Shown: positions 44,349 through 48,594 of the stretch, one piece after another
Position numbering within the stretch: the stretch's first letter is position 1
How the letters are laid out: each line of letters opens with the position of its first letter
Origin: Enterovibrio norvegicus DSM 15893
GTDB taxonomy: Bacteria; Pseudomonadota; Gammaproteobacteria; Enterobacterales; Vibrionaceae
DNA length: 64,000 nucleotides
Assembly (NCBI RefSeq): GCF_900115495.1
Contig: NZ_FOWR01000004.1
Location: 62,001 to 126,000 of the forward strand
Direction: 5' to 3'
Made by a program: the position numbers and the translations under genes
Notes under the pieces: generated by a model
What the model saw: only the letters and a program-made list of their open reading frames with translations
Database searches by the model: none
Told to the model about the DNA's origin: nothing

Positions 44349-45755
44349 TTATGATTTAGTTTGTTGCTTAAATCGTGCAGTAAAGTGCCTCAATACTGCA
44401 GGTTCGTAGGTGAATGCCAATCCCTTGAGCGACGCTGCTTTGTCTTTGAGTTCAATCAGCGCGTCGGCGATGTAATCCATGTGGTCATTGGTATAAACGC
44501 GGCGTGGAATAGTGAGTCGCATCAGTTCCATCGGCGAGGCTTTTTGTTCACCCGTGGTTGGGTTTCTGCCAAGCAGTAAAGAACCAATCTCGACGGCGCG
44601 AATACCCGCTTCCACATAAAGTGCGTTCGCAAGCACATGGCCTGGGAACTGATCGCCAGGAAGATGAGGCAGCATTTTCCCTGCATCAACAAATACAGCG
44701 TGCCCACCGGTTGGATACTGAATGGGAATGCCGCCTTCACGCAGACGCTCGCCCAAGTATTCCACCTGACGAATACGGTAATTGAGGTAGTCTTCGTCAG
44801 CGCCTTCATACAGACCGCGTGCGAGGGCTTCCATGTCTCGGCCTGCCATGCCGCCATAGGTAACGAAGCCTTCCATCGGAACGCAGCGTGTTTGCACGGC
44901 TTGGAACAACTCTTGGTGATCACGCACACAACACAAGCCGCCGATGTTCACGAGCGGATCTTTCTTCGCCGACATGGTGAGCATATCGCCATAGGTATAC
45001 ATCTCACGGATGATGTCCGTGATGGAGGCATTTTCATACCCTTCTTCACGCTGTTTGATGAACCATGCGTTTTCGCAATACCGGGCGGAATCAATCACCA
45101 CGGGGATGTCGGCTTCTTTGGCGATGTCATACACTGCGCGCATGTTTGCCATGGATACCGGCTGACCGCCTGAACTGTTACACGTCACTGTCGTGATGAT
45201 TGCGGCGATGTTTTCTGCGCCATAGTGCGCAATGGTTTCGCGCAGTTTGTCGAGGTCGAAGTTGCCTTTCCAATCGTCATAAGTGTTGGTGTCGAAGGCT
45301 TTCTCGGTTAACACGTTAACGGGAATGCCGCCATTCAGCTCAACGTGACCTGCCGTGGTGTCAAAGTGGTAATTCGAGATGAACACCGGATCGGTGCCGC
45401 CGCGTACTTGGCGCATTCGCTCGATTAAGCAGGGAAACAAAATCTGCTCAGCGCCGCGACCTTGGTGTGTCGGTACAGTGAGCTTGTAACCAAAGAAGTG
45501 CTCTACTGCGTCGCAGAGATGGTAATAGTTTCGGCTACCTGCATAAGATTCATCACCCATCATCATGCCTGCCCATTGATTATCACTCATGGCACCTGTG
45601 CCTGAGTCGGTGAGCAGATCAATGTAGACATCTTCACTGCGCAACAAGAAAGGGTTTAACCCCGCTTCTTGCAGTGCCTTAGCACGGTATTCAGGCGTGG
45701 TCATTTTGATGGGTTCAACCATCTTGATGCGGAAAGGTTCTGGTAATCGTTTCAT
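44349..45755 (-). CDS. tnaA: Tryptophanase
   Basis: PLP lyase of 468 residues that splits tryptophan to indole, pyruvate and ammonia. It starts [15 protein letters not shown] as in E. coli TnaA (471 residues). Cofactor and active-site motifs: [49 protein letters not shown], and the PLP lysine in [14 protein letters not shown] (about residue 266). The potassium-site and C-terminal regions look complete. It lies 269 bases downstream of a tnaC leader peptide, so it should be induced by tryptophan through ribosome stalling and Rho antitermination. No tnaB or mtr permease gene is next to it. Confidence 0.95.
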
Positions 45756-46126: not shown

Positions 46127-46389
46127 CAGCACTATCCTCCTTGTCGTTGGTAAACATGTCTTTAATGGCCACATTTGCACAGTTCCAAGTTATTCACACC
46201 TTGCGCCGCACAAAATACGTCTCTATCCATTTACCCTAGCTGAACTTTCCTTTTTGTGAAACACCGAGTGTTAAAACAAAAGTATGAGTTTCACGCTGGT
46301 TTCAATTCCGAGACACGTTACTAGGTGCTTTCGTGCATATAGTGTTCGTAGGTTCAGTTGTGAGTTTAGCCAAAGGGAGCGCCTACTTT

Positions 46390-47448
46390 ATGTTACCAGA
46401 CCAATTTCAAATGACGGTGGATAATAAAGTGTTTAAAAGGGGGCGCTTCGTTGATGCATCCCATGCTTCAGGGACAAGCCCGAAACAGCGTCTTTCATTC
46501 TTTGATGATGTTCGCGCGCGAATTTCTGGTCATGCACACATGGATGATGCGTTTAAAGCTTCGTTAACTGATCGCTTGAAAACATTATCTCAATCTTCGT
46601 TAAATATACTCGTCGTGGGGTCGCAGGGGGTGGGGAAAACCGCCACCTTAAAGCAACTGTTTGGCCAACATGAATGGGATCATGATGCTATTCAGTCATC
46701 GTCTGAGCTTATTCGTCATGAACTAAATCAATTGACCTGCTGGGAAGGCTTGTTGCCGAGTGAAAGTGAAAAGCCCGAGCAGACAGATTGCGAAATCAGT
46801 GCATTGCTTTCAGAGACTGCGGCAAATGGCTTGCCGTTGGTCGATTTGGTGCTGGTGGTCTTGGATTCAAGTAGCGCCAATATCGATAACGCCTATGTAG
46901 ACATTCAGAAAACCCTTATCGCTAAATTGGGTGAGCATGCAGAGCAGCGTTTGGTTGTGCTGATGAACAAGGTGGATAAAGTCGCACAATGTATCCGTGG
47001 TGAATATGTTGAAGATATGATGCCACTGGATGCGGAAGTTTGGCTAGATTGCACCTCAGCCGCGATTCGATTCCACCTTCGAGAAAACGTAGGCATTCAT
47101 ATCACGCCATTGCTTTACAGCGCCGTTGCAGTGCAAAAAGGCGAAGCGGTACGCTCTTATAACCTCATTAAATTGATGGCGCGATTGATGGTCGCGCTTC
47201 CGCCAGAAAAACGCTTGATGCTGTTGAATCAGCCGTTGTCACAAGGTGATGAAACATGGCGTTACCACGATGAAAGAAAGATTTACATGCAATCAATCGA
47301 AAACCTGTGTTTCGACGCTTTGCATAAAGGGGCTCGAGATGGCGATCGTTTTGGTGGTCAACTTGGTGCATTTTTAGGTCGACATGGTCGCGCGCTTGGT
47401 GACATTGTGAGTGATGGATTGAGAAAACAATTCGGCACGAGTGTGTAA
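46390..47448 (+). CDS. P-loop GTPase-like protein A (degenerate G3)
   Basis: Protein of about 352 residues from ATG 46390 (AAGGGA 11 bases upstream); the frame is open from GTG 46333. G1 is GSQGVGKT (about residue 77), G4 MNKVD (about 192). At the position where its downstream paralogue has DFPG (G3), this protein has CWEG, so the catalytic switch Asp is lost. The C-terminal segment GARDGDRFGGQLGAFLGRHG (about 322) is shared with the paralogue. The family resembles IRG/YfjP-type GTPases. It could bind GTP without normal hydrolysis and pair with the next protein. Function unknown. Confidence 0.68.
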   Translation: MLPDQFQMTVDNKVFKRGRFVDASHASGTSPKQRLSFFDDVRARISGHAHMDDAFKASLTDRLKTLSQSSLNILVVGSQGVGKTATLKQLFGQHEWDHDAIQSSSELIRHELNQLTCWEGLLPSESEKPEQTDCEISALLSETAANGLPLVDLVLVVLDSSSANIDNAYVDIQKTLIAKLGEHAEQRLVVLMNKVDKVAQCIRGEYVEDMMPLDAEVWLDCTSAAIRFHLRENVGIHITPLLYSAVAVQKGEAVRSYNLIKLMARLMVALPPEKRLMLLNQPLSQGDETWRYHDERKIYMQSIENLCFDALHKGARDGDRFGGQLGAFLGRHGRALGDIVSDGLRKQFGTSV

Positions 47449-47510
47449 CTGATCCTAAATGAAGGCGAGCAGACCGTTGCTCGCACTTCCTAGCCATAGA
47501 GGATAATCCT

Positions 47511-48470
47511 ATGGAAAATAACAGCGCTTTTTCACGCCAACTTTCTCGCTATATCAGCCAATCTCCCATTCTTGATGAATGGAAGACATCAAGCCTTCAA
47601 TTACGCCTTCATCAACTCAATGACCAACCGTTAAACATCCTGTTTGCTGGACCATCGGGTGTGGGCAAAAGTGCCACCATCAACGCGCTTTTTGCGACCG
47701 AAGAGTTTGAAACATCAGGGGCGGAGGATGAAGGTGCGATCGTGCGTTTCTCATCTGGTGAGTTAGTGCTTTGGGATTTCCCCGGTTACCGATTAGAAGA
47801 CACCCAGTCGGCCATGCAACTTGCGGCGACGTTGAGTGAATATGATGAAGCGGGAAAACCTCTCATTGATTTAGTGGTTGTGGTGTTGGATGCCGCGCAG
47901 CAAAACCTGAATGATGGGTATCAGTTGATCAATAAAGTCATTGCGCCTGCACTTGGTGAGTCAACCGAGCAACGCATGTTGGTGATGTTGAATAAAGTGG
48001 ACGCTGCGAACCACAGCTATGAATGGGCATACGTGAATGAATCCTGTTCGTCTGAGGTTGAAATTTGGCCAGAAAGCACTGCCTCTTTACTTCGCCATTG
48101 CTTACTGAGGGATGCAGAGCTTGAGGTCGCCCCTGTGTCTTATGCTGCAGAATTCTCTCGTAAGGCAGATACCATGCGCCCTTACAACTTGCTCAAAGTG
48201 ATGAACGAAATATTGGTGCGCTTGCCTGAAGAAAAGCGTTTAACGCTGCTTGATGCGCCGCTAAATCAGCGTGCCTTGAATTGGTGTGACAGCGACAATC
48301 GATGTAATTATCTCACGCAGCTTGAGAATACCCTGTTTGATTTGGTGTATCAGGATGCAAAAGACGGGGCGCGATTTGGTGGCTTGCTCGGTGCGCACAA
48401 AGGCAAACAAGGGCGTGAGCTTGGGTATTTGTTACGACGACAGCTGCATGCGTCGTTGAAGATTGGCTAA
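47511..48470 (+). CDS. P-loop GTPase-like protein B
   Basis: Protein of 319 residues, paralogue of the preceding gene product and starting 62 bases after it. G1 GPSGVGKS (residues 47-54), G3 DFPG (89-92), G4 NKVD (161-164), so a complete GTPase of the YfjP/IRG-like (COG3596) kind. After about residue 200 the two paralogues run in parallel: MRPYNLLKVMNEILVRLPEE against SYNLIKLMARLMVALPPE, and the tail AKDGARFGGLLGAHKGKQG. No membrane anchor or signal peptide. It ends at a bidirectional terminator. Cellular role unknown; ribosome or membrane association is possible. Confidence 0.74.
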   Translation: MENNSAFSRQLSRYISQSPILDEWKTSSLQLRLHQLNDQPLNILFAGPSGVGKSATINALFATEEFETSGAEDEGAIVRFSSGELVLWDFPGYRLEDTQSAMQLAATLSEYDEAGKPLIDLVVVVLDAAQQNLNDGYQLINKVIAPALGESTEQRMLVMLNKVDAANHSYEWAYVNESCSSEVEIWPESTASLLRHCLLRDAELEVAPVSYAAEFSRKADTMRPYNLLKVMNEILVRLPEEKRLTLLDAPLNQRALNWCDSDNRCNYLTQLENTLFDLVYQDAKDGARFGGLLGAHKGKQGRELGYLLRRQLHASLKIG

Positions 48471-48565: not shown

Positions 48566-48594
48566 CAAAAAGGGGCTGTTTAGCCCCTTTTTTA
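48566..48594. terminator. Bidirectional terminator
   Basis: Stem AAAGGGGCT and AGCCCCTTT with A run before and T run after, between the converging GTPase B and K+ channel genes. Confidence 0.87.

Follow-up and report, generated by a model that had tools for sequence, protein, structure and literature searches.

A tandem pair of GTPase-fold paralogues with partly lost switch machinery in Enterovibrio norvegicus

Two neighbouring genes of Enterovibrio norvegicus DSM 15893, here called A and B, encode paralogous proteins with a GTPase fold whose switch machinery is partly gone. The pair is retained in most species of the genus, which suggests that it serves as a structural or signalling pair. 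The explanation that best accounts for the whole, to which we assign a probability of roughly 0.55, is that A and B are a degenerate TRAFAC-type GTPase pair maintained by selection, probably acting as a heteromer and derived from a mobile GTPase family. We found no published account of the pair in the open-licence PMC literature.

The genes lie in a stretch of 64,000 nucleotides that was analysed as a whole (the window). Gene A (positions 46390-47448, forward strand; 352 aa) lacks the G3 motif and is by its sequence a pseudo-GTPase; gene B (47511-48470, forward strand; 319 aa) has G1, G3 and G4 and lacks the switch-I Thr. The first-pass annotation had placed two adjacent P-loop proteins with a common GTPase core here, and it was right about them and their coordinates: the genes are same-strand neighbours whose products are 36% identical (112 of 308 columns of a pairwise alignment, 203 bits). 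The start of A is the ATG at 46390; an in-frame GTG at 46333 was dropped because it falls within a conserved promoter-like element (46302-46343). In Pfam, B passes the cut-offs for MMR_HSR1 (30.8 bits, cut-off 21.9) and RsgA_GTPase (31.0, cut-off 30), whereas the GTPase and AAA matches of A are all below cut-off. Both proteins belong by full-length profile match to a phrog_16468-like family of long GTPases, the uncharacterised phrog_16468 profile covering most of each (residues 49-342 of A, E 1.4e-31; residues 21-306 of B, E 5.5e-31). The nearest named record for B, from E. baiacu A649, is 92% identical.

The motifs were compared in an alignment of 74 rows, consisting of 11 A and 11 B proteins, two D1 and two D2 proteins (the A-like and B-like members of the pair in a second genus, g6, with two genomes), 33 canonical long relatives, 14 short relatives and YfjP. 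The broken genes of two of the 13 same-genus loci (G051 and G081) do not enter the motif counts, and the alignment leaves out P. mirabilis H2 and H3, P. toruni H5 (same place as G042) and the second long copy of G222. Protein A was said to keep G1 and G4 and to have lost G3, and this proves correct. Its P-loop (GSQGVGKT, 46618-46641) is present in all 11 orthologues, and its G4 (NKVD, 46966-46977) takes the form [NT]xxD in eight and SKCD in three. At the place of G3 stands WEGLLP (46741-46758; all three on the forward strand), and in every orthologue Glu or Gln takes the place of the G3 Asp and the G3 Gly is missing. No intact G3 turned up elsewhere: DxxG is absent from the G3 place of all 11 proteins, and in the A of the window it is absent from the entire interval between P-loop and G4. 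A DEQG in the A proteins of G078 and G059 was rejected as a G3 motif; it lies about 25 residues downstream, in a linker where B also has DxxG. Every one of the 11 orthologues retains the W, L and P of W[EQ]xxLP, and the site therefore looks re-used, beyond mere decay.

Protein B, as had been claimed, keeps G1 (GPSGVGKS, 47649-47672), G3 (DFPG, 47775-47786) and G4 (NKVD, 47991-48002; all on the forward strand), and each of its 11 orthologues has all three. The remaining canonical motifs are largely lost from both proteins: the switch-I Thr occurs in two of 11 A and one of 11 B sequences (the alignment being gappy here in B), and RDxG in none of either. Canonical long relatives have G1, the switch-I Thr, G3 and G4 in 33 of 33 cases and RDxG in 30; short relatives have G1 in 14 of 14, and the switch-I Thr and DxxG in 12 each. 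In g6, both D1 proteins lack the P-loop Lys and DxxG, and both D2 proteins lack DxxG and a proper P-loop, the Lys itself being present. Neither A nor B carries the full canonical set of G1, switch-I Thr, G3, G4 and RDxG; a pseudo-GTPase, taken as a protein that lacks the catalytic motifs and is under selection, describes A, and B only in part. The suggestion of an active and an inactive partner is an oversimplification: A is without G3, but the loss of the switch-I Thr from 10 of 11 B orthologues means that calling B active goes too far, and in g6 both partners are without a proper P-loop and G3.

The two proteins do share an unusual glycine-rich C-terminal tail, as first described (DGDRFGGQLGAFLG in A, 47338-47400; DGARFGGLLGAHKG in B, 48363-48425; both forward strand), and the best conserved stretch of A is a 20-residue block over the start of the tail (0.92). 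The hydrophobic, often Gly-zipper, C-terminus of the phrog_16468-like long family is missing from A and B. Their maximal C-terminal hydropathy over 19 residues is at most 0.51, compared with at least 0.85 in 30 of the 33 canonical long relatives (it is below 0 in two). Membrane remodelling, which the first-pass annotation had raised, is disfavoured because A and B are without this hydrophobic C-terminus, which most canonical relatives have, and the hydropathy values point to a cytosolic location for the pair.

In a tree with YfjP as outgroup, in which the bootstrap had not settled and the branches are long, all 26 A, B, D1 and D2 proteins fall into a single clade (support 99/100); A groups with D1 (96/90) and B with D2 (92/74, not a starred branch). 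Judged from these relationships the pair is the product of a duplication; the data do not reject a separate duplication event in g6 (p-AU 0.16). Both genes are under purifying selection. Values of dN/dS are 0.058-0.144 for A and 0.045-0.084 for B in six of seven species pairs, dS being saturated in the seventh; the neighbouring channel gene gives 0.029-0.090 in the five pairs that could be computed, in comparison with which A is less constrained in all five and B in three.

Relatives of B (at 1e-5) and of A are each found in 30 of 296 genomes of the family. At the level of the order, 11 of 394 genomes have a relative of A at 1e-10, the window's own genome included, and two of 369 genomes of the class, one of them again the window's own, have a relative of B. 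The locus is present in 13 of the 18 same-genus genomes (own genome counted) and absent from five; 11 of the 13 loci hold intact pairs, and wherever A was found in the genus, B or what is left of it was found too. The pair is also present in both g6 genomes examined. In one of the two broken loci (G051), A has an in-frame stop and the frame of B ends after 70 codons, just past the P-loop; a frame on the opposite strand, which we take to be a piece of a transposase, follows the short B frame and runs to the contig end (L098:4853-5313). In the other (G081) both genes are in pieces, but the breaks may be sequence errors, since the genome is 87% complete and its rlmF gene is split as well. In one genome without the pair (G014; L158:5786-8143) the channel gene immediately adjoins the gene that elsewhere lies upstream of the pair, an arrangement that is an empty or deleted site. 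The five absences, the two broken loci and this arrangement indicate that the pair is dispensable in some lineages. Two scans of viral contigs, which gave 23 and 19 pattern stretches, confirmed no relative, and phages gave no match for B at 1e-5 and four for A, only at E of about 2. A genome of another family of the order (G572:C99; L101, L113) has four long relatives and a short one in tandem, one match containing a stop.

By its neighbours, the pair is largely syntenic and keeps for the most part to a single chromosomal site. In 10 of the 11 intact same-genus loci, including the window, it is followed by a convergent TrkA-type channel gene and a DUF1232 gene, which were not seen in G031. The rlmF gene is nearby in eight of the 11; it was not seen in G031 or G059, and the stretch from G078 ended before it could appear. 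In both g6 genomes the channel, DUF1232 and rlmF genes are downstream of D1 and D2, with other genes between. Upstream of A in the window is a 468-aa gene (44349-45755, reverse strand), presumably a tryptophanase or tyrosine phenol-lyase, which has a relative in four of the 10 other intact loci. Just upstream of A in G078 (L083:5892-7151) is a non-specific endonuclease fused to a lamin tail domain.

A promoter-like element, TCAAnnnCGAGACA-N22-TATAGT, precedes A in the window (46302-46343, forward strand), where it was seen by reading and matches the strict form TCAAnnnYGAGACA-N19-24-TATAGT. That form has 21 matches in the 18 same-genus genomes, every one upstream of A or B, and its reversed control has one. 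Across 276 genomes of the family, a looser form, TCAN5GAGACA, matches 30 times (21 at A or B, one at D1 of G016 and eight elsewhere); its reversed control gives 23, and matches of the looser form away from the pair therefore do not exceed background. With one mismatch allowed, the 17-base box has 22 matches in the 18 genomes, 20 of them at A or B of ten genomes and one before A in G081. The last (G067:C70) is in an unrelated gene, antisense inside a 506-aa frame that is presumably a transporter, and was taken as chance. At 15 canonical loci of the family (10 as upstream stretches, five as whole loci) GAGACA-N19-24-TATA[AGT]T did not occur. A plain sigma-70 promoter would not have the spacing of 21-22 seen here, and a scan for promoters of sigma-70 type found none at the locus; we infer an activator site over the -35 region together with an extended -10.

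In nine of 11 species the A-B gap is longer and holds a separate copy of the element for B. In the window and in its closest relative (G071, where the copy before A ends in TATATT) there is no element before B and the gap is 62 bp. The single operon first proposed fits these two, but less readily the nine species in which B has its own element. A hairpin in the short gap (47465-47484) was listed by the terminator scanner on the reverse strand and has no T run on the forward strand, whereas one after B (48567-48592, forward strand) resembles an intrinsic terminator and can also be read on the reverse strand, for the convergent channel gene. In G078 and G059 a hairpin after A was found by eye, the one in G078 not being reported by the scanner. 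Rfam, at its gathering threshold, had no match in the 64-kb window.

The canonical long relatives, homologous to A and B over most of their length, are 29-34% identical to B in genomes of the family and 30-33% on plasmids, where seven of 72,556 records have a relative of B. Members of the phrog_16468-like family other than A and B, where we looked, are plasmid-borne, lie in an island or have restriction genes as neighbours. One canonical locus from the genomes of the family (L067) is an island with the order RadC-DUF2787-GTPase-YfjJ-like by Pfam; a P. mirabilis plasmid has the same order by annotation, and several further canonical loci have frames of matching sizes, judged by eye only. Other long GTPase genes adjoin McrC, type I restriction and Csx1 genes (L064) or csm6, cas1 and cas2 (L086), or lie inside a type I restriction locus (L088). 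Some have a second, shorter GTPase as a neighbour, in four of five plasmid records opened and five of 15 long loci of the family; such side-by-side genes were seen at L064:4599-13601, L086 and L088, and also at L085 and L087 (other plasmids). We regard this long and short combination as an uncharacterised candidate defence-associated pair. Two of the 14 short GTPases, near-identical partner proteins from G049 and G061 (L072:7720-8451; L028:753-1496), lack both the switch-I Thr and DxxG, a further instance of catalytic motifs being lost within the family. What sets the long relatives apart from A and B is their complete G1, switch-I Thr, G3 and G4 and, in 30 of 33, their hydrophobic C-terminus. 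No published function was found for the phrog_16468 relatives in the open-licence PMC literature.

No family membership of A and B beyond phrog_16468 was found. AIG1 scores of 17.6 bits (A) and 22.9 bits (B) fall short of the cut-off of 27, and the IRG profile IIGP gives B 13.8 bits against a cut-off of 24, although one canonical relative passes (28.3). Structure prediction from four-sequence alignments is of low confidence (mean pLDDT 49 for A and 39 for B). With the model of A, the best PDB matches in Foldseek are Irga6 and Toc34, at a query TM of at most 0.31 among the 50 listed; these matches are weak because the models are poor, and together with the sub-cut-off Pfam scores they give a likeness to IRG, AIG1 and Toc34 GTPases from a model too poor for placement. 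The PADLOC profiles LeoA and LeoBC match in part only (LeoA against B, E 4.5e-6; LeoBC against the G domain of canonical relatives, down to 6.3e-16), being 559 and 601 positions long, compared with about 320-350 aa for proteins of the A/B type. E. coli YfjP is a GTPase encoded in a prophage (CP4-57) with defence genes and scores 22 bits with the family HMM; it differs from A and B in its low similarity, a branch of 4.88 as set outgroup and a G4 that reads SQSD. A functional parallel is offered by septin hetero-oligomers, in which paralogous GTPase-fold subunits are kept although some have lost GTPase activity (PMC10731463). On this reading A and B would work as septin pseudoGTPases are described to. 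Septins are eukaryotic, however, and the Pfam Septin scores of A and B are below cut-off.

Several other explanations have to be weighed against a selected, heteromeric pair. The most serious is that B is a working GTPase switch that cycles, with A as a dead regulator providing a regulatory or GAP-like surface. The complete G1, G3 and G4 of all 11 B proteins, set beside an A that has G1 throughout but no G3, would fit such a division of labour, as would the fact that B alone passes Pfam GTPase cut-offs. However, the switch-I Thr is absent from 10 of 11 B proteins and RDxG from 11 of 11, whereas canonical relatives keep them in 33 and 30 of 33, and the B-like D2 has neither a proper P-loop nor DxxG. 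We consider this explanation unlikely, though to be taken seriously.

It is less probable still that A and B make no contact, being tandem paralogues that diverge separately and are adjacent for historical reasons. The distance-matrix correlation does not speak specifically for an interaction (r 0.91 for A-B against 0.98 for A-rlmF; the partial A-B correlation given the channel is 0.59), and the separate elements and longer gaps of nine of 11 species would agree with independent genes. Nevertheless, no same-genus locus has one gene intact and the other gone without trace, the same rare element precedes both genes, and both have the conserved tail. That the two genes are decaying leftovers of a mobile GTPase cassette, with no present function, seems to us very improbable. 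Broken genes in two genomes and absence from five of 18 could be read as decay, but the low dN/dS of 0.045-0.144 disfavours it; moreover, the frames are intact in 11 species, the promoter element is conserved, and the breaks in G081 may not be real.

Under the preferred reading, a selected degenerate pair, a phrog_16468-like mobile GTPase would have been duplicated and domesticated at one chromosomal place, with loss of its hydrophobic C-terminus. A would then be the non-hydrolysing subunit, for which nucleotide is at most a structural ligand, and B a slow or binding-only subunit. Toc34 and IRG GTPases associate face to face through their G domains. The A-B heteromer that the sequences lead us to infer would most likely form in the same manner, like septins also, and the tail common to both proteins may be a contact surface. 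Matched promoter elements would coordinate A and B, probably by way of a dedicated activator site that overlaps the -35 region. Our best guess for their role is a cytosolic scaffold or sensor, made from a mobile-element GTPase and no longer a membrane-acting enzyme. In a more specific form, which we put forward tentatively and at less than even odds, the pair is a two-subunit pseudo-GTPase system that has lost membrane attachment and hydrolysis stepwise, is an obligate heteromer and has a private, matched promoter element. The successive losses would be those of switch II in A, switch I in B and proper P-loops in both g6 members.

Finally, the pseudoGTPases that we met in the literature are eukaryotic: septins (PMC10731463), and p190RhoGAP, Rnd and CENP-M (PMC10211241). 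If our reading is true, A and B would be a bacterial pair whose members stand at different stages of loss and whose intact relatives are on plasmids or beside restriction genes, an arrangement in which domestication of a mobile-element gene could be tested. The almost private element before A and B offers a clean route to their regulator, and the pair would allow one to ask what a GTPase fold serves once hydrolysis is gone.
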